Source of the DNA: Methylococcus capsulatus
Lineage (GTDB): Bacteria > Pseudomonadota > Gammaproteobacteria > Methylococcales > Methylococcaceae
Direction of reading: 5' to 3'
Assembly (NCBI RefSeq): GCF_036864975.1
Contig: NZ_CP104311.1
Span: forward strand, 124,001 to 188,000
DNA length: 64,000 bases
Shown: positions 30,925-46,821 of the stretch, in pieces
Numbering within the stretch: position 1 is the first letter of the stretch
Layout of the letters: each line of letters opens with the position of its first letter
Program-made: the position numbers and the translations under genes
Notes under the pieces: generated by a model
Database searches by the model: none
What the model saw: only the letters and a program-made list of their open reading frames with translations
What the model was told of the DNA's origin: nothing

Positions 30925-31710
30925 ATGAAGCTGACGTTCATCGGTGTCGGTTCTGCCTTTGCCCTGCAAAACTATCAGTCGAATGTCCTGATCGAGAGCC
31001 AGGGCAGGAAACTCCTGATCGATTGCGGCAGCGATGCGCGCTTTGCCCTGCACCGGCTGGGACTCGGGGCGGAAGACATCGACGCCCTCTACGTCAGTCA
31101 TCTGCATGCCGATCATATCGGCGGCATCGAATGGCTGGGCTTTTCGCGTTATTTTTCCGGCGGGATGCGGCCGGAACTCTTCATCGAGAAGCGGCTGGCG
31201 GAGCATCTCTGGGAACGATCGCTGCGAGGGGGCATGGCGTCCGTCCAGGGAAGGTCGATGCGTCTGGACGACTTCTTCTCTACGGTCCACCGCCTTTCCC
31301 CCGGCGGGGCATTCCGGTTCGGGAGCCTCGGCTTACGTCTTTTCTCGACGCTGCATTATTTCGACTGCCGTGAGCTCGCTCCGAGCTACGGTCTGGTGAT
31401 CGACGTTCATCCGGAAGCCGCGGCGCCGGAAATGACCGAGCCTCGTTGCAGAATCGTGCTGACGACCGATACCCAATTTTGCCCCGACCGCCTCGCCGGA
31501 CTCTACGACAGCGCGGACGTCATTTTCCAGGACTGCGAGACGGCCCCGCGGCGATCCGGCATCCACGCGCACTACGATGAGCTTTGCGGACTTCCGGCGT
31601 CGATCCGGAAAAAAATGTGGCTATACCACTACCAGGACGGGCCCCTGCCCGATGCAGCCGGTGCGGGTTTCCACGGCTTCGTCCGGCAGGGACAGGTTTT
31701 CGAATTCTGA
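30925..31710 (+). CDS. MBL-fold metallo-hydrolase
   Basis: A 261-residue metallo-beta-lactamase-fold protein: MKLTFIGVGSAFALQNYQSN, then YVSHLHADHIGGIEWLG (HxHxDH), LTTDTQFCP carrying the metal aspartate, and GIHAHYDEL supplying a late histidine. The layout resembles RNase Z/cyclic phosphodiesterase-like members, with no exosite arm recognisable. It sits upstream of and convergent with a receiver/kinase pair and near two nucleotide cyclases, so a cyclic-nucleotide phosphodiesterase role is possible but unproven. Confidence 0.8.
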   Translation: MKLTFIGVGSAFALQNYQSNVLIESQGRKLLIDCGSDARFALHRLGLGAEDIDALYVSHLHADHIGGIEWLGFSRYFSGGMRPELFIEKRLAEHLWERSLRGGMASVQGRSMRLDDFFSTVHRLSPGGAFRFGSLGLRLFSTLHYFDCRELAPSYGLVIDVHPEAAAPEMTEPRCRIVLTTDTQFCPDRLAGLYDSADVIFQDCETAPRRSGIHAHYDELCGLPASIRKKMWLYHYQDGPLPDAAGAGFHGFVRQGQVFEF

Positions 31711-32114: not shown

Positions 32115-34211
32115 CTAGGCTGTGATCCCAAGGCACGCGCCGATCCGGTCGCCGAGCTCCTGCAGCAGCTCCTCCCTTCCCCGCGTCCCTTTGTTGACCA
32201 CGTATTCTACGTAGCCGTTCAGGCGCTGGCGATCTTCGGCGGTGAGATCCTTGGCGGTGACGACGATCACGGGTATCGAACGCCAGGCTTCCTGCTGGCG
32301 CAATTCCTCCAGGAAACTGAAGCCGTCCATTTCCGGCATCATCAGGTCGAGAACGATCAATTCGGGCCGGTTCTCCGCCACCCGTTCGAGCGCCACCCGC
32401 CCGTTTTCGGCCTCCTCGACCACCCAGCCCTCGTGCTCCAGCATACGCCGCATCAGCTCCCGGAGGTCGGCGTGGTCTTCCACCAGCAGCACGGGACAAG
32501 GCGGATGGGCGCAGCGGTACTTCTGCAGCACCTTGGCCAAATAGTCCCTATCGATGGGCTTGGTCAGAAAATCGGTGGCGCCGAGGGCGAATCCCAGATT
32601 CCTCTCGTCCAGAATGGTGGCCATGATGACCGGAATCGGCGCCAGTTCCGAATCGGCCTTCAGCGCCGTCAATACCGCCCAGCCGCCCATTCCCGGCATC
32701 ATGACGTCCAGAATGATCGCCCCCGGCCTCAATTCCCTGGCGAGTTTCAGCCCTTCCTGGCCGCTGTCCGCCTCCGCCATACGCAGACCCTGCTTCTCCA
32801 GGAAGCGCCGCATCAGGTCGCGTGCCGCCGGATCGTCGTCGATCACCAGCACGGTGGGAATCCCCTTGGCCAAAGCCGATCCGGACTCCGCGGCCGGCAC
32901 CTTTTCCGGCACGCCGCCGTCTACGGGCAGGTGAATCGTGAAGGTCGAGCCGGCCCCTGCCTCGCTCTCCACGGTGATGTCCCCGCCCATCATCTGGCAG
33001 AAACGGCGGCTCAGGACCAGCCCCAGGCCGGTGCCGCCGAAATTCCGTGTGGTCGATGCATCGGCCTGCGAAAACGCCTGGAACAAACGGCTCATCTGTT
33101 CCGGGGTGATGCCGATCCCGGTGTCGTGGACCGCGAAATGCAGCCATTCCCTTCCATCGACGCTTTCCCTGTCGACGGCCAGGGTGATGACGCCGTCCCG
33201 GGTGAACTTGGAGGCATTGCTCAGCAGGTTGAACAGCGCCTGCCGCACCTTGGTCAGGTCGGCCCGGATCGAACCCATGCCTTCGGCGCATCGGACCTCG
33301 AGGCGGTTGTTGTTCTTGGCGACCACCGGCGCAATGGTCGCCACCACGTCGTCGAGCATGGGAACCACCTCGAAGGTCTCCAGGTAGACCTCCATTTTCC
33401 CCGCCTCGATCTTCGAAAGATCCAGCACGTCGTTGATCAGCGCCAACAGATGCTTGCCGGAAGCGCGGATCTTGTTCAGGTCGGCCAGTTCCTCCTCGCG
33501 CCCCGCGTCTTCGGCATCCTCCGCCAGGATCTCGCTGTAGCCGATGATGGCGTTGAGCGGCGTGCGCAGCTCATGCGACATGTTGGCGAGGAATTCCGAT
33601 TTGAGTCGCGTCGCTTCGAGGGCCGCATCGCGCGCTTCCGCCAGCTCGATGTGGGCGGCTTCCAGTTGCGTCTTCCGCTGTTCCGACAGCTTCACGGCCT
33701 CGACCAGGCTCAGGACCTTGGGAACCTGCAGCGGCAGCACCAGCGCGGTGGCGACCGAAACCACGGCGGTCAGGAGCTTGGTGTATCCGGACAGCCAGTA
33801 GCTCGCGTTCCAGATCGTCCACGCCCCCATGAAATGGGTGACCGCGCAGGCGACGATGAAGAGTCCGAAGGCCAGGAATATCCAGGAAAACGGTATGTCG
33901 CGACGGGCCCGATGGATGAGATAGACCAGGGTCGCCGAGATGCAGACATAGGAGAGCCCGATCAGGAGATCGGTGCTCAGGTGCAGCCACCACAGTTGCG
34001 GCACCCAGAGGTAGCACATGCCGTGCGGCATGAAGGACTGGCCGCTGACGCCGGTCGCGAACAGGTTCGCCGCCAGTCTCGGCCAGGACAACAACAGCAT
34101 CGCGGCTATCGCCACGAGCACGAGCCCGTAGGAGAACCAGCGCAGCTGCGAGACCTGCTCGATACTCTCCGGATTGGGCGGACTTGCCGGGGAAATCTCT
34201 CGACTTGACAT
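32115..34211 (-). CDS. Hybrid histidine kinase with ethylene-receptor-like membrane domain
   Basis: A 698-residue sensor kinase. Residues 27-43 are a membrane segment. Residues 65-165 match the plant ETR1 / Synechocystis ethylene-binding domain: D81 and Y88, then AFGLFIVACAVTHFMGAWT with I119, C122 and H126 (the Cu(I) ligands of ETR1 are Cys65 and His69), and KLLTAVVSVATALVL. Then come HisKA (NMSHELRTPLN, H213), HATPase (GTGLGLVLSRR) and two receivers (VLVIDDDPAARDLM; VLLVEDHADLRELM). It likely senses a small ligand through a copper centre. The partner receiver follows by 11 bp. Confidence 0.88.
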   Translation of the reverse strand: MSSREISPASPPNPESIEQVSQLRWFSYGLVLVAIAAMLLLSWPRLAANLFATGVSGQSFMPHGMCYLWVPQLWWLHLSTDLLIGLSYVCISATLVYLIHRARRDIPFSWIFLAFGLFIVACAVTHFMGAWTIWNASYWLSGYTKLLTAVVSVATALVLPLQVPKVLSLVEAVKLSEQRKTQLEAAHIELAEARDAALEATRLKSEFLANMSHELRTPLNAIIGYSEILAEDAEDAGREEELADLNKIRASGKHLLALINDVLDLSKIEAGKMEVYLETFEVVPMLDDVVATIAPVVAKNNNRLEVRCAEGMGSIRADLTKVRQALFNLLSNASKFTRDGVITLAVDRESVDGREWLHFAVHDTGIGITPEQMSRLFQAFSQADASTTRNFGGTGLGLVLSRRFCQMMGGDITVESEAGAGSTFTIHLPVDGGVPEKVPAAESGSALAKGIPTVLVIDDDPAARDLMRRFLEKQGLRMAEADSGQEGLKLARELRPGAIILDVMMPGMGGWAVLTALKADSELAPIPVIMATILDERNLGFALGATDFLTKPIDRDYLAKVLQKYRCAHPPCPVLLVEDHADLRELMRRMLEHEGWVVEEAENGRVALERVAENRPELIVLDLMMPEMDGFSFLEELRQQEAWRSIPVIVVTAKDLTAEDRQRLNGYVEYVVNKGTRGREELLQELGDRIGACLGITA

Positions 34212-34514
34212 GATCGGCTCTCCGATGGGCAGTGACCGGCGTCTGGGAGCACGGCGCACACGGCACGGCGCACACGGCCCGGCGGCCCACCCCCGTTGAC
34301 AGCGTTTACGGAAATCGGTGGAATGTCAAGGCGCCTTCCAGAGACCAGCCTGGCAGGGTCGGCAGGGATATCCGACCTGCGCCGGACGGCAATGAGGTCG
34401 CTCGAAACCCCTTCGAAGCCTTACCGGGCATGGATTTTCGAAGCCGACCCTTAAGTCTTTGCGAGGCACCATGGACCCCACGGACTCGACGCCGATTCAT
34501 CGGCCGCCAGCGCC
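34212..34514. promoter_or_regulatory. Divergent region, hybrid kinase / cyclase
   Basis: 303 bp between the divergent signalling genes. It contains short direct copies of CGGCGCACACGGC (34252-34280) near the kinase start, which could be slippage. There are no convincing promoter boxes and no coding capacity. Confidence 0.35.
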
Positions 34515-36098
34515 ATGACCGGCACGACGGCGCCGCCTCCCGACAACCGGGGGAAACTGGGCCTGGCTAAAATCCGCCATGGCCTGCGGACGCCCATCAA
34601 CCATATTATCGGCTATGCCGAAATCCTCCGGGAGGAAACCGCCGACACCCTGCCCGCCGCTTTCGTCACAGACCTGGAAAAGATTCACAGCAGCGGCTAC
34701 ATCCTGCTGGCGCTGATCAACCGGCATCTGGGCGAGGATTGCACGCCCAACGCGGAACCCGATCTCCACGCCCTCAGCCACGAGCTGCGCACCCCGGTCA
34801 ATCACATCATCGGCTACGGCGAACTGCTGGCCGAACAGTGCGACGAACTGGGCCAGCCGGACCTGAAGCCGGACCTCGCCAGGATCGTTTCCGCCGCCCA
34901 CACCTGGCTGGAGATGATGGAGGAACATTTCGGCAAGCGCTCGAATCCGCCTCCCGAACCACCCTCGAACCCACCGCCTCCGGCCGCGAATTCCCCGAGC
35001 CTGCGGGAACACTGGGTCAGCATCCCTCCCACCGAAGCCCCCTCCCGCAACCTTTGCACCGGTCATCTGTTGCTGGCGGACGACGACGAACCCAATCGCG
35101 ACCTGCTGCGCAGAAGGCTGGAAAAGCTGGGCTACCGCATCACGACGTGCGGGGACGGCCTGGAAGCGCTGGCGCTGGTCCGCGACACCCTGCCGGACCT
35201 GGTACTGCTGGACATGCTGATGCCCGAACTCAACGGCGACGAAGTCCTGGTCCGCATCAAATCCGACGAGGCCCTGAGCCACGTGCCGGTCATCATGATC
35301 TCGGCGCTGGACCAGGTGGAGGGCATCGCCCATTGCATCGAGCTCGGTGCGGAAGACTACCTCGCCAAGCCCTTCAATCCGATCGTGCTGCGCGCGCGCA
35401 TCGGCGCCGTGCTGGAGAAAAAGCGGCTGCGCGACCTCGAGCAGGTTTACCTGAAGCAGATCGACGGGGAACGGGCGCGTTCCGAACGGCTGCTGCTGAA
35501 CATCCTCCCTCAGCCCATCGCCGACCGGTTGAAAAAGGGCGAAGGCCATATCGTGAACACCTTCGACGAGGTCACGGTGATGTTCGCGGACCTGGTGGGT
35601 TTCACGGCCTTGTCCGCGGCTATGCCGCCCACCCAGCTGGTGCGCCTGCTCGACCGGATATTTTCGGCCTTCGACGAACTGGCGGACCGGCACGGGCTGG
35701 AGAAGATCAAGACCATCGGCGACGCCTACATGGCCGCCGCCGGCCTGCCGTTCCCGCTCCAGGACCACGCGGCCGCCGCCGCCCGCATGGCGCAGGACAT
35801 GCACCAGACCATCGACCGGATCAGCGCCCAGTACCCGGCCGAACTGAAAATGCGGATCGGCATCTGCACCGGTCCCGTCATCGCCGGCACCATCGGCCAG
35901 AAGAAGTTCATCTACGACCTCTGGGGCGATACGGTCAACACGGCGAGCCGCATGGAATCGCACGGCCTACCCGGCCGTACGCAGGTGGCCGCCAGCACCT
36001 ACGGACTGCTCCGCGGCCGTTTCGAGTTCGAAGAACGCGGCACCATCGACGTCCGGGGTAAAGGCCCGATGAAGGCTTATCTCCTTGGCTCAGCATGA
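34515..36098 (+). CDS. Class III adenylate cyclase with two HisKA motifs and a receiver
   Basis: A 527-residue soluble protein. Two histidine-phosphoacceptor motifs stand in tandem: RHGLRTPINHIIGYAEIL (H22) and SHELRTPVNHIIGYGELL (H89), with no HATPase domain. After a Pro-rich linker (145-160) a receiver follows (LLLADDDEPNRDLL, D233 in LLDMLMPELNGDE, K285), then a signalling helix and the cyclase (about 350-500): VMFADLVGFTALS (D359), EKIKTIGDAYMAA (D403, lysine for ATP), YDLWGDTVNTASRM (D472, N475, R479). All catalytic positions for cAMP synthesis are present. It is divergent from the hybrid kinase and a plausible target of its phosphoryl groups. Confidence 0.9.
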   Translation: MTGTTAPPPDNRGKLGLAKIRHGLRTPINHIIGYAEILREETADTLPAAFVTDLEKIHSSGYILLALINRHLGEDCTPNAEPDLHALSHELRTPVNHIIGYGELLAEQCDELGQPDLKPDLARIVSAAHTWLEMMEEHFGKRSNPPPEPPSNPPPPAANSPSLREHWVSIPPTEAPSRNLCTGHLLLADDDEPNRDLLRRRLEKLGYRITTCGDGLEALALVRDTLPDLVLLDMLMPELNGDEVLVRIKSDEALSHVPVIMISALDQVEGIAHCIELGAEDYLAKPFNPIVLRARIGAVLEKKRLRDLEQVYLKQIDGERARSERLLLNILPQPIADRLKKGEGHIVNTFDEVTVMFADLVGFTALSAAMPPTQLVRLLDRIFSAFDELADRHGLEKIKTIGDAYMAAAGLPFPLQDHAAAAARMAQDMHQTIDRISAQYPAELKMRIGICTGPVIAGTIGQKKFIYDLWGDTVNTASRMESHGLPGRTQVAASTYGLLRGRFEFEERGTIDVRGKGPMKAYLLGSA

Positions 36099-36151: not shown

Positions 36152-37471
36152 ATGCCTAAGGTCACGTATTTTCATGAAATCACTTTCGAGGACATCCCGG
36201 AAGGACAGACCCTGCTCGATGTTTCGATTCATCACAGGATTCCCCATCTTCACCAGTGCGGCGGCCAGGCGCGCTGCACCACCTGCCGCATCCAAATTCT
36301 CGACGGACTTTCCAATGTCTCACCGCGAAGCCCTCTGGAAGAGAAAGTGGCGTCCGAACGCGGGTGGGACGAATTTACCCGGCTGGCCTGTCAGACCCAT
36401 GTGCACGGGGACGTGGTCGTTCGCCGGCTGCTCGACAACTCCCAGGACATCATCGTGCTCGACCTGGAAGAACTTCATGGGGGAAGCGCCGGCGAAGGGA
36501 AGGAGCTCGATTTGGCCGTGCTTTTCTCCGACATTAGGGACTTTACGACCCACAGCGAACAAAACCTGCCCTACGACATCGTGCACATGCTGAACCGCTA
36601 TTTCACCGCGGCGGCCGAGCCGGTGCTCAACAACAACGGCTTCATCGACAAGTACATCGGGGACGGCATCCTGGCGGCGTTCGGCACCCGCGACGAATCC
36701 CCGGAAACCGCCTGCCGGAATGCGGTCCGCGCAGCGCTCGGAATGCTGGAGGCCGCACGCCGGCTTGCGCCGACGCTCGAACAGCAATTCCATGTTCCCT
36801 TGCATATCGGCATCGGCATCCATTTCGGAACCGCCATCCTGGGCCGCATCGGCCACCCCGGCAAGCGGCAGATCACGGTGATCGGCGATACGGTCAACAC
36901 GGCGAGCCGGATCGAGAGCATGACCAAGCAGTTCGCCACCCCGATCCTGCTCAGCGACAGCGTAGTCAGCCAGCTCCCCGGAGCGCTTCAGCTCGATCCG
37001 CCGTTTGCGGTTCCACTCAAAGGCAAGACCACGCCCATGCAGCTCTACCCCTGCCGGGGTTTCACCGCTCCCGACACGATCTTCCTGGTGCAGTCGTCCT
37101 TCGACAATCTTGTGCCACGCGCGGCCGCATTCGGCGACCGCTTTTACGCTAACCTCTTCGACACTTACCCTGAACTGCGGCCGATGTTCCGCAGCGACCT
37201 CACGGCACAGAGCAAAATGCTCATGTCCATCCTGAGTTCCGCCGTGAAAGGGTTGAACCGGATGCCCGAGATCGTCGGCGGCCTGCGCGCGCTCGGAAAA
37301 CGCCACCACGAATACGGCGTCAGCCGTATCGATTACGACAAGGTGTCGCGCGTGCTGATCGGAACCCTGGAAGAATTCCTCGCCGAGGAATTCACGCCGG
37401 AAGTCCAGCATGCCTGGAGAACCGTATACGGCATGATCGCGGAAACGATGATCGAAGCCGCTGAAAACTGA
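36152..37471 (+). CDS. Ferredoxin-adenylate cyclase-globin fusion
   Basis: A 439-residue, three-domain soluble protein. Residues 1-95 are a plant-type [2Fe-2S] ferredoxin: CGGQARCTTC (C36, C42, C45) with a distal C80 (LACQTH). Residues 115-300 are a class III cyclase: LAVLFSDIRDFT (D127), FIDKYIGDGILAAF (K167, D171), VIGDTVNTASRIE (D246, N249, R253), complete for cAMP. Residues 305-439 are a single-domain globin: FYANLFDTYPELRPMF in the CD region and LGKRHHEYGV with proximal histidine H385. It should couple redox state and O2, NO or CO binding to cAMP. It follows the other cyclase after 53 bp. Confidence 0.9.
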   Translation: MPKVTYFHEITFEDIPEGQTLLDVSIHHRIPHLHQCGGQARCTTCRIQILDGLSNVSPRSPLEEKVASERGWDEFTRLACQTHVHGDVVVRRLLDNSQDIIVLDLEELHGGSAGEGKELDLAVLFSDIRDFTTHSEQNLPYDIVHMLNRYFTAAAEPVLNNNGFIDKYIGDGILAAFGTRDESPETACRNAVRAALGMLEAARRLAPTLEQQFHVPLHIGIGIHFGTAILGRIGHPGKRQITVIGDTVNTASRIESMTKQFATPILLSDSVVSQLPGALQLDPPFAVPLKGKTTPMQLYPCRGFTAPDTIFLVQSSFDNLVPRAAAFGDRFYANLFDTYPELRPMFRSDLTAQSKMLMSILSSAVKGLNRMPEIVGGLRALGKRHHEYGVSRIDYDKVSRVLIGTLEEFLAEEFTPEVQHAWRTVYGMIAETMIEAAEN

Positions 37472-37575
37472 AGCGAATCGACGGCGTCGGTGTAACCGTC
37501 TGGCCTCCGGAGCCGGAGGATCTCAAGCAAAAGAATGCCGTGAATGCATCCACCCAGAGCAGCCGAGAAGAGCAG

Positions 37576-39657
37576 ATGAAAAGCCCAGCGGAACACACCG
37601 AAACCCAGCGCGTCATGGTCGGGACCGACAGGTCCGAAACGGCGGATCAAGCGGTCCGATGGGCCGCATCGTTCGCCGAACGGTACGGCGCCGAACTCTT
37701 CGTGGCACAGGTGATTTCGCCCGAGAATCCCGCATCCACGGAATACGGCGCTGCCGAACGCACCCGGGCCGCGCTGGCGGGCGAGGAACTCGCCGCCTAC
37801 GCCCGCCAGCTCGCCGGTGCGCGCGGCCACGGACGGGTTCTCATCGACCCGGATCCCGCCGCGGCGATCGTCCTCGCGGCCGAGCAGGAGAAAATCGACG
37901 TGCTGGTCGTCGGCAATCTGGGCATGGCGGGGCGGAAGGAATTCCTGCTGGGCAACGTCCCGAACCGCATCAGTCACAACGCCCGCTGCACCGTGGTAAT
38001 CGTGAATACCATGCCGACCGGGGACCAGCCCTCCAAACCCTCCCAGACTTTCGTCCGCGGCAGAGAGCCGGCGCCCACCGAGCCTCGATTGATGGCACGT
38101 GGCTCCCAGATCGCGGCGGTGATGGCAAGGCACGGATTGAAGGAGCTGTTCGGACGTCCGGACGAGGAAGGATCGACCGGCCGGCGGCGGCAGGCCAAAC
38201 GGCTGCGTTCGGCGCTCGAGGAACTCGGCCCCACCTTTTCCAAGCTCGGCCAGATCCTGTCGACTCGGCCCGACCTGCTGCCCGCCGAGTACATCGAGGA
38301 GCTGGAGAAGCTGCAGGACCACGTGCCGCCGTTGACCGAGCGGGAAGTCGTCGGAGTGTTCGAGCGGGAACTCGGCGTGCCCTGGGAGGACGTGTTCGAG
38401 TCGATCGAGCCGAAACCGCTGGCCGCCGGCACCATCGCCCAGGTTCACCGCGCCACGCTGGTGGGGGGAAACCGGATCGTCGTCAAGGCGCAGCGGCCCA
38501 ACGCCCGGGAAGAGATTGAACAGGACCTAGCCCTGCTGGAGGTGTTCGCCGAAAAGGTCGGAGAGCGTCCGGCCCTGAAGAAAGTCATCGACATGGAAGC
38601 GGTATTCAAGCACCTCTCCTCGTCGCTGCACCGCGAGCTCGACTTCCGGCAGGAGGCCGAGAACATCGCGCGGATGCGGGAGGTCCTCATGGGCTACGAT
38701 CGTCTCAGCGTCCCCGCGATCTATAACGACTTGTCGACCTCGCGCATCCTGGTGATGGAAGAAATCCAGGGCGTGCCGGTGGTGGAAGCACCGGAAGGCC
38801 CGGAGCGGTCGAAAGCCGCCCGGCAACTGCTGGAAAGCTACTACAAGCAGATTCTCGTCGACGGCTTCTTTCACGCCGACCCGCACCCCGGCAACCTGAA
38901 ATGGTGGAACGAGCGGATCTATTTTCTCGATTTCGGGATGGTCGGAGACGTCGGCCCCGAGGTCCGCGAAAACCTCATGCTACTGCTGATGGCGTTCTGG
39001 CAGGGCGATGCCGTGTTCCTCAGCGAAGTCACGCTGATGCTGGCCGGCTCCACCGATCGCAGCGACCTGGACATCGCCCGCTTCCAGGCCGAAATCGGCG
39101 AGCTGATGGCGAAATACCGCACTGCAGCGCTGGCGGACATGCAGATCGGCGTGATTCTCCAGGAAATGTGCGAGATCGCGCTGCGTTACGAGGTCCCGAT
39201 GCCGGCGTCCCTGACACTGATCGGCAAGGCGCTGGCCCAGGTCCAGATGGCCACGGCGCGGCTGGACCCCACGCTCGATCCTTTCGACATCGCCGGCCAT
39301 TTCCTGATGCGGTCGATGTTCAAGGGCATGCGTTCCCGGCTCGATCCGAAGGCTCTGCTTTACCAATCCCAGAAGCTGCAGGTGCGCGCCACGCGGGTGA
39401 TCGACGCGCTGGAGCGGCTGGTCGGCGCACGGCCGGGACCCAAGCTCGAGGTGAAATTCCGCGCCAACACGCTCGAAGACGTCGTGCACCGAACCGGACA
39501 CCGTGTGGCCTTGGGGCTGACGGCCGCCGCCAGTCTGCTCGCCGCCGGACTCACGGCCGGCTCGGCGGCGGTCGCTGAATGGATCCCCGCGGGCTTTGGC
39601 GTCGGAGGCGCTGTGCTGACCCTCGGCTTGATCGCCGATGCGATGCGCCGGCACTGA
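37576..39657 (+). CDS. UspA-UbiB/ABC1 kinase fusion protein
   Basis: About 693 residues. Residues 10-150 are a universal stress protein domain (VMVGTDRSETADQAVRWA; VVGNLGMAGRKEFLLGNVP). From about 190 an ABC1/UbiB atypical kinase follows: FSKLGQILSTRPDLLP (KxGQ), PLAAGTIAQVHRA (Ala-rich loop), VVKAQRP (Lys), FFHADPHPGNLKWW and YFLDFGMVG (catalytic and metal aspartates). Two hydrophobic helices lie at the C-terminus (LGLTAAASLLAAGLTAG; VGGAVLTLGLIADAM). UbiB proteins support ubiquinone synthesis or lipid handling at membranes. The start is ATG 37576 or GTG 37540. Confidence 0.88.
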   Translation: MKSPAEHTETQRVMVGTDRSETADQAVRWAASFAERYGAELFVAQVISPENPASTEYGAAERTRAALAGEELAAYARQLAGARGHGRVLIDPDPAAAIVLAAEQEKIDVLVVGNLGMAGRKEFLLGNVPNRISHNARCTVVIVNTMPTGDQPSKPSQTFVRGREPAPTEPRLMARGSQIAAVMARHGLKELFGRPDEEGSTGRRRQAKRLRSALEELGPTFSKLGQILSTRPDLLPAEYIEELEKLQDHVPPLTEREVVGVFERELGVPWEDVFESIEPKPLAAGTIAQVHRATLVGGNRIVVKAQRPNAREEIEQDLALLEVFAEKVGERPALKKVIDMEAVFKHLSSSLHRELDFRQEAENIARMREVLMGYDRLSVPAIYNDLSTSRILVMEEIQGVPVVEAPEGPERSKAARQLLESYYKQILVDGFFHADPHPGNLKWWNERIYFLDFGMVGDVGPEVRENLMLLLMAFWQGDAVFLSEVTLMLAGSTDRSDLDIARFQAEIGELMAKYRTAALADMQIGVILQEMCEIALRYEVPMPASLTLIGKALAQVQMATARLDPTLDPFDIAGHFLMRSMFKGMRSRLDPKALLYQSQKLQVRATRVIDALERLVGARPGPKLEVKFRANTLEDVVHRTGHRVALGLTAAASLLAAGLTAGSAAVAEWIPAGFGVGGAVLTLGLIADAMRRH

Positions 39658-42570: not shown

Positions 42571-44346
42571 ATGACCATTTCCGGCCAACCCGTCCTCCGC
42601 GCTGCCATCGTCACCCTGCAAGGGCGGCGCGAAGACAATCAGGACTTTGCCGCTATCGCCGAACCACCGCTGCGGGATGCCGCTGCGCGCGGCTTCGTAG
42701 CGGCCGTGGCCGATGGCATCGGCGGCGCCCGCGGCGGCCGGGTCGCGGCAGAAGTGTCGGTGCGCGGTTTCATGGAAGCCTACTACGGCCTGCCCGAAAC
42801 CTTGGGAATGGAACAGTTGCTGGACCGTTGCCTGGGCTCGGTCAACCGCTGGGTGCATGCCATGGGCCGGGTGGATCCCGAGCTGGCGCACATGGGCACG
42901 ACCTTCAGCGGATTGATCTTCCGCGGCCGCCGGGCTTACCTCGCACATGTGGGCGACTCGCGCATCTACCGCCTGCGTGGCGACGATCCAGAGCTGCTGA
43001 CCTTGGATCACACCCTGAGTGGGCCGGGGCTGGATCATGTCCTGTACCGCGCGGTCGGACTCGATCCCGGCCTCCGGATCGATTACAGCGTGTACCCGCT
43101 GGAACCGCACGACCGTTTTCTGCTGTGCAGCGACGGCCTGCACGGCAGCCTCGAACAGGAACAGATCAAGGCGATCCTGCAGGAACGGGCCACCCCCGAA
43201 ACCACGGCCGAGGCGCTGGCGCTCCGGGCGTTCGAACAGGGCAGCCAGGACAATATCACGGCCCTGGTGGTGGATGTCATCGCCCTGCCACCGGCCGAAC
43301 GGCAGACTCTGCGTCTCGCCATCGAGACTTTACCCCTGCTGGAACTGCCCAAGACCGGTGAAATGATGGACGGCTACCGCATGGAGCGGCTGCTTTCCTC
43401 CGGACGCTACAGCGCATTGTTCCTCGCCGCCGATACCCTGAGCCAGGGCAAGCCGGTGGTGGTGAAGTTTCCGCATCCGCGGGTCGCCAGCGAACGGGAA
43501 TATTACGATGCCTTCGTGCGTGAGGCATGGATCGGGGCCCGAGTGAAGAGCCCCTGGGTCGGCGAGGTCCTCGAGCAGCCCCCCGGACGCCAGACCCGGC
43601 TCTATTCGGTGATGCCTTTCTATCCCGGCGTCACCCTGGAATACGCCCTGGTGCAGCGGCCGCGCATCGACCTGGAAGCCGGGATCGATCTCGCCTTGAA
43701 GCTGTGCAAAGCGGTGCATGCCCTGCACCGGCAACAGATCGTCCACCGCGACATCAAACCGGACAATGTTCTGCTGGAGCCGGGAGGCGGCCTCAAACTG
43801 CTGGACCTCGGCATCGCCCGGCTGCCGGCCTGGGACGAGGACCAGGCCGATCCCGTCCCCGGCACCCCCAGCTACATGGCGCCGGAAATGTTTCAGGGCG
43901 AACGTGGCAGCATCGCCACCGATGTGTTCGCGCTCGGCGTGACCCTGTACCGGATGTTCGCTGGCGGCGCCTACCCCTATGGCGAGGTCGAACCGTTCAG
44001 CAGACCGCGTTTCAGCGTTCCGAAACCGCTGACCGCCCATCGGCCGGATCTGCCGGCCTGGCTGGACGCAGTGCTGACCCGGGCCATCGCGGCCGATCCG
44101 GCGCAGCGCCCGGCCGATGCCGTGGAACTGGCTTACGAGCTGGAGGCCGGGCTGGAAAAAGGCGGCGGCAGGCGCAGCCCGCGGCGGCGCCTGCCGCTGT
44201 ACGAGCGCAATCCCCTGCAATTCTGGAAAGCCGTCGCGGCGCTGCTGCTGACCCTGCTGACCGTGGCCGGCCTGCGCCTGTCGCTGCCGTCCTGCCGACC
44301 CGCCGGCGCGGCATTACATCTTAAAAAAACCCTTGAATCACGATAA
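42571..44346 (+). CDS. Bifunctional PP2C phosphatase / Ser-Thr kinase
   Basis: A 591-residue fusion. Residues 1-240 are a PP2C phosphatase: GRREDNQDFAAI, AVADGIGGARGG, AHVGDSRIYRL and GSQDNITALVV carry the metal aspartates. Residues 265-530 are a Hanks-type kinase: VVVKFPHPR (Lys), IVHRDIKPDNVLLE, LLDLGIARLP (DLG) and TPSYMAPEMF. Near the C-terminus is a membrane helix (KAVAALLLTLLTVAGL). It sits between the transporter and nirB, a position such fusions hold in other assimilatory nitrate operons, and probably adjusts transport or reduction by reversible phosphorylation. The substrate is unknown. Confidence 0.9.
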   Translation: MTISGQPVLRAAIVTLQGRREDNQDFAAIAEPPLRDAAARGFVAAVADGIGGARGGRVAAEVSVRGFMEAYYGLPETLGMEQLLDRCLGSVNRWVHAMGRVDPELAHMGTTFSGLIFRGRRAYLAHVGDSRIYRLRGDDPELLTLDHTLSGPGLDHVLYRAVGLDPGLRIDYSVYPLEPHDRFLLCSDGLHGSLEQEQIKAILQERATPETTAEALALRAFEQGSQDNITALVVDVIALPPAERQTLRLAIETLPLLELPKTGEMMDGYRMERLLSSGRYSALFLAADTLSQGKPVVVKFPHPRVASEREYYDAFVREAWIGARVKSPWVGEVLEQPPGRQTRLYSVMPFYPGVTLEYALVQRPRIDLEAGIDLALKLCKAVHALHRQQIVHRDIKPDNVLLEPGGGLKLLDLGIARLPAWDEDQADPVPGTPSYMAPEMFQGERGSIATDVFALGVTLYRMFAGGAYPYGEVEPFSRPRFSVPKPLTAHRPDLPAWLDAVLTRAIAADPAQRPADAVELAYELEAGLEKGGGRRSPRRRLPLYERNPLQFWKAVAALLLTLLTVAGLRLSLPSCRPAGAALHLKKTLESR

Positions 44347-44358
44347 CGGAGACTCGCG

Positions 44359-46821
44359 ATGAGCAAGCCCAAACTCGTCCTCATCGGCAACGGCATGGCC
44401 GGCGTCCGCACGCTGGAAGAGCTGCTGAAGCTGGCGCCCGGCAAATACGACATCACCGTGTTTGGCGCCGAACCCCATCCCAACTACAACCGCATCCTGC
44501 TCTCGCCGGTCCTGGCCGGCGAAAAGACCCTGGACGACATCGTCCTCAACGACGATGCCTGGTATACCGGACACGGTATCACTCTGCACAAAGGCAAGAA
44601 AGTCGTCGCCATCGACCGGGTCCGCCGCTGCGTCCGCACCGAAGACGGGACCGTAGCGGGCTATGATCGCCTGTTGCTGGCGACCGGCTCGACGCCTTTC
44701 ATCCTACCGGTACCGGGCAGAGACCTGGAAGGCGTGGTCGGCTTCCGCGACATCCGCGACGTCGAGCGGATGCTGGAAGCCTCGGAAAAGCACCGTTACG
44801 CCGTGGTCATCGGCGGCGGGCTGCTGGGACTGGAAGCCGCCAACGGCCTCAAGAAGCGCGGCATGAACGTCACCGTGGTGCACCTGCTCGATACCCTGAT
44901 GGAGCGGCAGCTCGACAAACCGGCAGCGGGCCTGCTGCAACGGGCACTGGAAAACAGCGGCCTCAACTTCAAGCTGGAAGCCCAGACCGAGGCTTTGCTG
45001 GGCGAAGGCCGGGTCCGCGCCGTCCGTTTCAAGGACGGCTCGGAAATCCCCGCCGATCTGGTGGTCATGGCAGTGGGCATCCGCCCCAATATAGAACTGG
45101 CCAAAGCCGCCGGCATCCATTGCGAGCGCGGCATCCTGGTCAGCGACACGATGCAGACCTTCGATCCTCAGGTCTATGCGGTCGGTGAATGCGTGCAGCA
45201 CCGCGGTGAACTGTTCGGCCTGGTCGCGCCGCTGTTCGAACAGGCCAAGGTCTGCGCCAACCATCTGGCCGAATTCGGCATCGCCCGCTATCAAGGATCG
45301 GTCACCTCGACCAAGCTCAAAGTGACCGGCATCGACCTCTTCTCCGCCGGGGAATACCAGGGTGGACCCGGTTGCGAGGAACTGCTGTTCCAGGACCCTT
45401 CGCGCGGCGTCTACAAGAAACTGGTGGTCCGCGACAACAAGGTTACCGGCGCGGTGCTGTACGGCGACACCGTGGATGGTGCTTGGTATTTCCAGATGAT
45501 GCGTGACGGTACCGACATCTCCGCCTTCCGCGAGCACATCCTGTTCGGCCAGGCCCACATGGGCGATTCCGGCCACGGCGCCGAAAGCCATGCCGTCCGG
45601 CTGGCGGAGGACGCCGAGGTCTGCGGCTGCAACGGGGTCTGCAAAAAGACCATCGTCGATGCCATCATCCAGAAGAAACTGTTTACGCTGGATGAAGTGC
45701 GCACCCATACCAAGGCCTCGGCCTCTTGCGGTTCCTGCACCGGTCTGGTCGAACAGATCCTGCAGAGCACCCTGGGCAGCGATTACTCGGTCAGTCCCGC
45801 CAAAAAGCCCCTCTGCAAATGCACAGACCTCACCCACGAGGAGGTGCGGGAAGCCGCGCGCACCCAGGGTCTGAAAACCATCCCGGAACTCATGGGTGCG
45901 CTGGGCTGGCGAACGCCAGACGGCTGCCACACCTGCCGCCCGGCGCTCAATTACTACCTGCTGTGCCAATGGCCGGACGAATACCGGGACGACCCGCAAT
46001 CCCGCTTCATCAACGAACGTGTCCATGCCAACATTCAGAAGGATGGCACCTATTCCGTTGTTCCCCGGATCTGGGGCGGCGTGACCAATCCGCGCGAACT
46101 GCGGGCCATCGCCGATGTGGCCGAGAAATTCCAGGTCCCCTGCGTCAAGATCACTGGCGGCCAGCGCATCGACCTGCTGGGCGTACCCAAGGCACGGCTA
46201 CCGGCCATTTGGGCGGAGTTGGGCAAGCACGGCCTGGTGTCCGGCCATGCCTACGGGAAATCGCTGCGGACGGTGAAGACCTGCGTCGGTAAGGAATGGT
46301 GCCGTTTCGGCACGCAGGATTCGACCACCCTGGGCATCGAGCTGGAGAAGATGACCTGGGGCTCCTGGACGCCGGCCAAGGTCAAGATGGCGGTGTCCGG
46401 CTGTCCCCGCAACTGCGCCGAAGCCACGATCAAGGATTTCGGAGTGGTGGCGGTCGACTCCGGCTGGGAATTACATGTCGGAGGCAACGGCGGCGTGAAA
46501 GTGCGGGCGACCGATTTCCTGTGCAAGGTACAGACGGATGAGGATGTCATGGAATACGCCGCAGCCTACCTGCAACTATACCGGGAAGAAGCCCGCTACC
46601 TGGAACGCACGGCGCACTGGATCGAAAGGGTGGGATTGCCGTACGTACACAGCCGCCTCGTCGACGACGCCGAAGGCCGCAAGGCGCTATGTGCCCGCTT
46701 CCTGGCGTCACAGCGCAAAGCACAGACCGATCCCTGGGCCGAGCGCGCACAAGGTGCGGAAAAACACGAGTTCGAGCCGCTGACACCCCAGGAGCGGAAT
46801 AACCATGCCTGCATCGCCTGA
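44359..46821 (+). CDS. nirB: Assimilatory nitrite reductase, large subunit
   Basis: An 820-residue NirB. The FAD/NAD(P)H part starts KLVLIGNGMAGVRTLEEL and includes VIGGGLLGLEAANGL. BFD-like [2Fe-2S] cysteines follow in CGCNGVCKKTIVDAI and CGSCTGLVEQIL, with a second set at CKCTDLTHEEV and CHTCRPALNYY. The siroheme/4Fe-4S half has CVGKEWCRFGTQDS (CX5C) and SGCPRNCAEATIKD (CX3C). It reduces nitrite to ammonium in the cytoplasm with NirD. SD GGAG lies before ATG 44359. Confidence 0.96.
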   Translation: MSKPKLVLIGNGMAGVRTLEELLKLAPGKYDITVFGAEPHPNYNRILLSPVLAGEKTLDDIVLNDDAWYTGHGITLHKGKKVVAIDRVRRCVRTEDGTVAGYDRLLLATGSTPFILPVPGRDLEGVVGFRDIRDVERMLEASEKHRYAVVIGGGLLGLEAANGLKKRGMNVTVVHLLDTLMERQLDKPAAGLLQRALENSGLNFKLEAQTEALLGEGRVRAVRFKDGSEIPADLVVMAVGIRPNIELAKAAGIHCERGILVSDTMQTFDPQVYAVGECVQHRGELFGLVAPLFEQAKVCANHLAEFGIARYQGSVTSTKLKVTGIDLFSAGEYQGGPGCEELLFQDPSRGVYKKLVVRDNKVTGAVLYGDTVDGAWYFQMMRDGTDISAFREHILFGQAHMGDSGHGAESHAVRLAEDAEVCGCNGVCKKTIVDAIIQKKLFTLDEVRTHTKASASCGSCTGLVEQILQSTLGSDYSVSPAKKPLCKCTDLTHEEVREAARTQGLKTIPELMGALGWRTPDGCHTCRPALNYYLLCQWPDEYRDDPQSRFINERVHANIQKDGTYSVVPRIWGGVTNPRELRAIADVAEKFQVPCVKITGGQRIDLLGVPKARLPAIWAELGKHGLVSGHAYGKSLRTVKTCVGKEWCRFGTQDSTTLGIELEKMTWGSWTPAKVKMAVSGCPRNCAEATIKDFGVVAVDSGWELHVGGNGGVKVRATDFLCKVQTDEDVMEYAAAYLQLYREEARYLERTAHWIERVGLPYVHSRLVDDAEGRKALCARFLASQRKAQTDPWAERAQGAEKHEFEPLTPQERNNHACIA

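Follow-up and report, generated by a model that had tools for sequence, protein, structure and literature searches.

The window—i.e. the whole 64,000-nucleotide stretch of Methylococcus capsulatus DNA analysed here—encodes a 439-aa chain in which a [2Fe-2S] ferredoxin domain (Fer2), a class III nucleotidyl cyclase, and a globin are joined in one reading frame. Judged from its sequence, this chain most likely belongs to the Fer2-cyclases and works as a soluble, homodimeric adenylate cyclase, its activity being predicted. We tentatively propose that Fer2-cyclases form a cross-phylum "redox-port" family, in which a conserved [2Fe-2S]-cyclase switch would be combined with a swappable cofactor domain that chooses the electron source or sink; the globin form found in the window would then be its gas-reading branch.

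A ferredoxin-cyclase-globin chain in a single reading frame

The coordinates and strand given for this gene in the earlier note are exact: it starts with an ATG at 36152, ends with a stop codon at 37469-37471, and has no internal stops. The claimed order of Fer2, class III cyclase, and globin in one chain is likewise borne out by a Pfam domain search, in which all three matches (Fer2, Guanylate_cyc, and Globin) exceed the gathering cut-off. The features of the gene are as follows.

36152..37471, + strand: Fer2-cyclase-globin gene, intact ORF of 439 aa (Pfam; AlphaFold2 model)
36191..36403, + strand: Fer2 [2Fe-2S] domain, residues 14-84 (Pfam PF00111, 1.2e-8)
36512..37030, + strand: class III nucleotidyl cyclase domain, residues 121-293 (Pfam PF00211, Guanylate_cyc, 7.5e-20)
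37061..37075, + strand: cyclase-globin junction, residues 304-308 (DSSP on the model; homologue alignments)
37139..37450, + strand: F-type (flavohaemoglobin-like) globin domain, residues 330-433 (Pfam PF00042, 2.7e-13)

The chain thus holds a contiguous Fer2 and class III cyclase core. Its AlphaFold2 model (55 aligned rows) has a mean pLDDT of 90.5 and a pTM of 0.77, and pLDDT falls below 50 only at residues 109-113, between Fer2 and the cyclase. The alignment used for this prediction was A4, and A3 was dropped for single-domain globins that were apparently mis-set (identities lower than in A2). Each of the 50 Foldseek matches listed for this model is either a cyclase or a cyclase fusion, with Spirulina CyaC (1wc3, E 4.1e-16) in first place, so that Fer2 and globin are assigned here by sequence profiles together with predicted secondary structure. 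No hydrophobic window is present in the chain, and Pfam finds no NAD(P)H-binding module in it. A gene-prediction artefact is ruled out by a 98%-identical copy in another species, by purifying selection on the gene (dN/dS 0.09), and by full-length homologues in other groups, a pattern that goes beyond chance.

Conservation of the cofactor and catalytic sites

The cluster cysteines that had been named, C36, C42, C45, and C80, are all present, and they are invariant in the 29 Fer2-cyclase rows and the five three-domain rows that cover them (29/29 and 5/5). Together with the Fer2 profile, these four ligands place the domain among Fer2 [2Fe-2S] domains, with a predicted cluster. The site is, however, not of the plant type as had been claimed: plant-type ferredoxins have a CX4CX2C spacing, whereas the window chain has CX5CX2CX34C, and the best NCBIfam ferredoxin matches of the domain are the ISC ferredoxin (fdx_isc) and NqrF (nqrF) models, both far under their own cut-offs.

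The class III catalytic residues D127, K167, D171, T242, N249, and R253 are also present; by CyaB1/CyaC numbering, they would be two metal-binding Asp, a Lys/Thr base pair, an Asn, and an Arg. This residue set and the PF00211 domain identify the chain, by sequence, as a putative class III adenylate cyclase. Specificity for adenylate over guanylate cyclase activity is predicted from the same presumed roles, and we take the base-specifying Lys/Thr pair to fit a purine cyclase. Six three-domain rows are available, namely the source genome, a second genome of the genus (G002), two near-identical Bradyrhizobium sequences, Thioploca, and the downstream piece of locus L125. Among these, D127 is kept in all five rows that cover it, K167, D171, N249, and R253 in 6/6, and T242 in 5/6, with one Ser. 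Across all rows, D127 is conserved in the 34 that cover it (34/34), and D171, N249, and R253 in 35/35. By contrast, K167 is present in 6/6 globin-fused rows vs 14 of the 29 other Fer2-cyclase rows, which suggests that some relatives may differ in substrate.

The proximal His385 of the globin is present at the position claimed for it. In a 37-row alignment that holds one duplicate (L212 and L087), B10 Tyr332 and E7 Gln353 are found in 36 rows, while CD1 Phe346 and F8 His385 are found in all 37; the only distal-pocket exception is Thioploca, with Phe at B10 and Lys at E7. The Globin profile, B10 Tyr, E7 Gln, and F8 His mark the domain, by sequence, as an F-type globin, and no Protoglobin match appears in the chain with Pfam up to E 1. 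The best-matching solved globin sequences are 3s1i, 3ubc, and 3wfw, a set that includes the Hell's Gate globin (HGbI; 3s1i and 3ubc) and thermoglobin. The best NCBIfam match of the globin is the NO-inducible flavohaemoprotein model (55 bits vs a cut-off of 432), and the domain is the sole PF00042 match in the genome.

The passage from cyclase to globin is nearly direct, with the last cyclase strand spanning residues 296-304 and the first globin helix starting at 309 (DSSP on the model). This junction aligns gap-free with Bradyrhizobium (L105) and, at the junction itself, with Thioploca (L107), and by eye its length is equal in the Pseudomonadales piece of L125. F-type globins also occur in other settings; for example, two gammaproteobacterial loci (L197 and L213) have one near the N-terminus of long PAS/HAMP sensors, with an MCP domain in L213.

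A widespread Fer2-cyclase core with varied partner domains

The earlier note had described ferredoxin-linked cyclases as rare, and this is not supported. Specifically, at least 56 of 398 phylum genomes, the source not counted, carry a Fer2-cyclase match, by our own count of listed matches with E <= 1e-30 that span Fer2 and most of the cyclase. We surveyed 117 loci pooled from the class, plasmid, phylum, and species-genome searches, a set with some duplicates and with a bias, since similarity to P0001 decided which loci entered it; L031-L054 from the class search and L009-L025 from the relatives search, whose matches were cyclase-only, were dropped before partners were counted. In 116 of the 117 loci, a single ORF contains both Fer2 and the cyclase, the exception being L125.

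Partner labels were assigned with phmmer, using one or two example domains per kind at E 1e-3, and are distributed over the 117 loci as follows.

CyaC-like N-terminus: 44/117
No recognised partner: 36/117
Rieske: 15/117
CDGSH and Rieske: 5/117
CDGSH: 1/117
Ferredoxin-reductase: 5/117
Globin: 3/117 in one ORF, plus the frameshifted L125
L117-type N-terminus (DUF2769 in Pfam): 3/117
Haem peroxidase: 2/117
Match to own query only: 2/117

Pfam confirmed examples of every partner kind except the CyaC-like N-terminus, a label that denotes similarity of the N-terminus and does not imply orthology to Sinorhizobium meliloti CyaC; of the 42 such N-termini that are long enough, 34 have 4-6 hydrophobic windows. 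The Rieske motif C-x-H...C-x2-H is kept in 18/20 Rieske rows. When partner labels are placed on the core tree, 31 labelled rows need 5 changes vs 17 in shuffles. One globin-less Fer2-cyclase (G464) lies between two single-domain globin genes, and it is the sole such case, as the flanks searched at the other globin-less loci (1.5-6 kb where the contig allowed) contain no globin gene.

Several of the fusions have features of their own. In L108 (5971-7599) and L130 (5794-7659), the Fer2-cyclase shares its chain with a haem peroxidase (PF00141) whose distal and proximal His motifs were recognised by eye, and from sequence these are possible peroxide-reading cyclases. Spirochaete Fer2-cyclases (L110 and L113-L116; Pfam on L114 only) have a C-terminal ferredoxin-reductase part. 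Fer2 and FNR parts form an electron path in NqrF, so the spirochaete forms have the two components of such a path on either side of the cyclase. Alphaproteobacterial chains (L161-L163, L182, and L184; Pfam on L161) hold CDGSH, Fer2, cyclase, and Rieske domains together.

Globin-fused homologues and their distribution

The three-part order is not unique, as it recurs in two Bradyrhizobium genomes, a Thioploca MAG, and, in frameshifted form, a Pseudomonadales MAG; a fusion unique to the genus is thereby ruled out. No full-length match outside the genus was seen among 101 relatives, 369 class genomes, and 398 phylum genomes, sets that overlap and are partly sampled. A pattern scan of named species genomes gave at least 596 stretches, including at least 523 relatives, of which the best 80 loci were taken. 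Among these 80, Bradyrhizobium altum and B. oropedii have all three domains at 61% identity, and the Thioploca MAG has all three at 37%, while the three domains of the Pseudomonadales MAG (L125) are split by a frameshift that lies either in the gene or in the assembly. A search of viral contigs gave three pattern matches with no relative among them. Of 648 plasmid records matched, 0 cover 80% of the query, and in the 30 rows listed the match is confined to Fer2 and cyclase.

In Bradyrhizobium, 24 nt separate the end of cydB from the start of the gene, and ccoN, ccoO, and ccoP (fixNOP) are located downstream of it. Among 80 loci, cydAB and ccoNOP are found only in the flanks of these two; the two loci are 98% identical over 13.3 kb, and the link to an oxidase cluster therefore amounts to about one observation. 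FNR boxes at the Bradyrhizobium locus (5 vs 2.8 expected) show no significant excess.

A quick tree was built from 119 cores. In it, a group with a support of 91 (not starred) unites the globin forms from this genus, Bradyrhizobium, and Pseudomonadales, and the Thioploca core falls apart from them, next to L026, which has no globin (support 100). A single clade of globin forms is not rejected by an AU test (P = 0.55). Given this result and the equal junction spacing, we set aside two separate gains and lean towards a single, unproved origin of the globin fusion.

Within the genus, the gene is intact in two of six genomes, the source genome and G002, which are 98% identical over it and both keep the functional residues. 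A third genome (G004) has lost part of the gene:

36975..37301, + strand: in-frame deletion in G004, which removes the cyclase end and the greater part of the globin

The deletion reaches the haem pocket, and the remaining chain has no His in place of His385. In G003, the gene is absent and both neighbouring genes are kept, while G001 (87% complete) and G005 are without the gene and also without orthologues of both neighbours. Between the source genome and G002, dN/dS is 0.089 for the whole gene; the globin part, with 13 synonymous and 5 non-synonymous changes, has a value of 0.108. Comparison with the deleted copy of G004 gives 0.04 for residues 1-274.

How the three parts may work together

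Based on sequence and analogy, we see about an even chance that the N-terminal [2Fe-2S] domain is the switch and the C-terminal F-type globin a port that sets the redox state of the cluster. One chain holds complete Fer2, cyclase, and globin sites. The globin haem would bind O2 or NO, cycle between ferrous and ferric states as in flavohaemoglobin, and swap electrons with the [2Fe-2S] domain; oxidation of the cluster would, by analogy with CyaC, raise cyclase activity, and cAMP would thus report O2/NO supply against reductant. We infer that the cluster is the switch from the constant presence of Fer2 beside the cyclase, from recognised partners that, DUF2769 apart, are redox domains, haem domains, or a CyaC-like anchor, and from the reductase form. 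The port looks interchangeable because the same core is seen joined elsewhere to other cofactor domains. In the wider and more speculative redox-port reading, a membrane haem anchor might serve quinones, a ferredoxin reductase NAD(P)H, a haem peroxidase H2O2, and the F-globin O2/NO, with Rieske and CDGSH as further ports.

The domains and their residues, the recurrence of the three-part order with a gap-free junction, the Bradyrhizobium oxidase cluster, the globin neighbours of G464, the partner survey, and the constraint on the globin part count for the redox-port model. Against it we count the 36 of 117 loci without a recognised partner, partner labels drawn from one or two example domains per kind, the finding of a nearby globin gene at just one globin-less locus (G464), a gene that is patchy and once disrupted in the genus, the different distal pocket of Thioploca, and the lack of a CRP-box excess or a clear FNR-box excess. 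The proposal of the earlier note that redox state and gas both feed into cAMP is plausible and is strengthened by the conserved sites, the Bradyrhizobium oxidase cluster, and the CyaC precedent, and it is still a link that we infer.

The main rival to the redox-port model is a mechanical gas sensor, in which a haem ligand shifts the globin helices and a short rigid junction passes the change to the cyclase dimer, Fer2 being mainly structural or a separate input. The junction of about five residues between the last cyclase strand and the first globin helix, with its conserved spacing, and the conserved flavohaemoglobin-type pocket would suit such a device. However, no row that covers the four cluster cysteines has lost any of them, and Fer2-cyclases persist without any globin, so that Fer2 presumably serves the cyclase itself; we regard the mechanical sensor as rather unlikely. 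The existence of a core common to many globin-free cyclases also speaks against NO dioxygenation or detoxification, where Fer2 would reduce the globin as the FNR part does in flavohaemoglobin and the cyclase would be a by-product or a feedback output. The flavohaemoprotein model as best NCBIfam globin match and the lack of a second PF00042 match in the genome would favour this explanation, but the chain is without an NAD(P)H-binding module, and we hold it to be improbable. We judge it just as doubtful that this is a decaying accessory gene that now does little in the genus. It is indeed intact in two of six genomes, internally deleted in one, and absent in three (one only 87% complete), and no CRP-like receptor was found in the genome. 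Yet the functional residues retained in both intact copies argue otherwise, and so does dN/dS, which between these copies is 0.09 overall and 0.11 for the globin, and which is 0.04 for residues 1-274 vs G004.

Relation to known systems

The principle of a cyclase regulated by haem or [2Fe-2S], and the single pieces, are already known. PMC10463352 describes S. meliloti CyaC as a class III cyclase that carries both haem B and [2Fe-2S] and is redox-regulated. The window chain resembles it in combining a class III cyclase, [2Fe-2S], and haem (the haem predicted), but the CyaC haem sits in a hexahelical membrane anchor whereas the window chain has a soluble C-terminal globin; it starts with Fer2, has no N-terminal hexahelical di-haem membrane domain, and is thus not of the CyaC type. 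HemAc-Lm of Leishmania major, a soluble adenylate cyclase, is called an O2 gasoreceptor in PMC12755159. Like the window chain, as read from sequence, it combines a haem O2-binding part and an adenylate cyclase in one soluble chain. The globin of HemAc-Lm is N-terminal, with no ferredoxin domain known, and the protein is eukaryotic, which sets it apart from the window chain.

Haemoglobin domains occur in multi-domain regulators including guanylate cyclases, according to PMC3820574. Globin-coupled sensors of the S family similarly join a haem globin to a signalling output. They have an N-terminal globin of the S/protoglobin type; by contrast, the globin of the window is F-type and C-terminal (PF00042 at 330-433, no Protoglobin match), and the output is a class III cyclase with Fer2, which places the chain outside that family. 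Flavohaemoglobin and single-domain F globins (3s1i and 3ubc; Vitreoscilla haemoglobin, 1vhb) share the globin family and pocket residues with the window chain but have no cyclase, and the reductant module of flavohaemoglobin is FAD/NAD rather than Fer2. The class III cyclase fold is shared with Pycsar PycC (PADLOC best E 1.1e-24); a Pycsar defence cyclase was rejected, as PADLOC gave no effector match among the five locus proteins scanned.

No account of the globin-tailed architecture or of the breadth of partner exchange was found in the open-access literature searched, with subscription literature mostly outside this search, and novelty is accordingly unproved; the passages seen of PMC10463352, PMC3820574, PMC12755159, and PMC3287990 do not describe the architecture. 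Should the cluster be a switch shared across the family, the rule linking electron state and cAMP could be tested directly on a single assayable core whose partners are swapped in nature. If true, the model would account for how quinone, NAD(P)H, peroxide, and O2/NO status might all be conveyed by the same messenger in bacteria, and the globin form would be a soluble cyclase reading both O2/NO and redox, its Bradyrhizobium copy lying beside bd and cbb3 oxidase genes.

Genomic neighbourhood and cAMP signalling

The genes around the fusion include the following.

34515..36098, + strand: second class III cyclase of 527 aa, with HisKA stretches, a receiver, and the cyclase, 53 nt upstream (Pfam)
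37540..39657, + strand: fusion of universal-stress and ABC1/UbiB-like (kinase domain) parts, 68 nt downstream at its first listed start (Pfam)
32115..34259, - strand: hybrid histidine kinase with two receivers, divergent from the cyclase pair (ETR1_N, PF25487, 1.2e-31, at the N-terminus)
30925..31710, + strand: Apyc1-related MBL-fold protein, a candidate for a cyclic-nucleotide phosphodiesterase (Pfam PF23023, 5e-31, over half of the profile)

The two neighbouring cyclases are the only PF00211 matches in the genome, which has no match to class I cyclases (PF01295). The MBL-fold protein matches 7u2r over residues 2-259 of 261 (4.8e-32); with NCBIfam it scores 18.6 of 400 bits to cyc_nuc_deg_phdiest, and RNase Z models give higher scores that likewise stay below cut-off. 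Two cyclases and an Apyc1-like phosphodiesterase candidate make a locus for cyclic-nucleotide turnover likely, as judged from sequence. The stress/UbiB-like fusion has orthologues in three other genomes of the genus, and the N-terminal domain of the histidine kinase is ethylene-receptor-like.

In the sole PF00027 protein of the genome, a cysteine cluster of the FNR kind can be recognised by eye, and the protein reaches 216 bits to Fnr (cut-off 228) vs 50 to CRP (cut-off 266); a CRP-like cAMP receptor was thus not found in the genome by the PF00027 search. Consistent with a methanotroph host, the genome has two PF02461 (pmoA family) genes. The suggestion that the chain is a central sensor of a methane oxidiser is unsupported, because the gene is intact in only two of six genomes of the genus and the PF00027 protein is FNR-like rather than CRP-like. 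In the window, CRP boxes (6 vs 15.1 expected) show no excess, FNR boxes (18 vs 12.7 expected, with 10 of 100 shuffles as high) no clear excess. A promoter scan gave 0 promoter-like sites vs 0.6 expected. Further along, a gene at 42571-44346 (+) encodes a PP2C phosphatase and a protein kinase in one chain, and it is followed at 44359-46821 by a nitrite/sulfite reductase-type gene (NIR_SIR, BFD).
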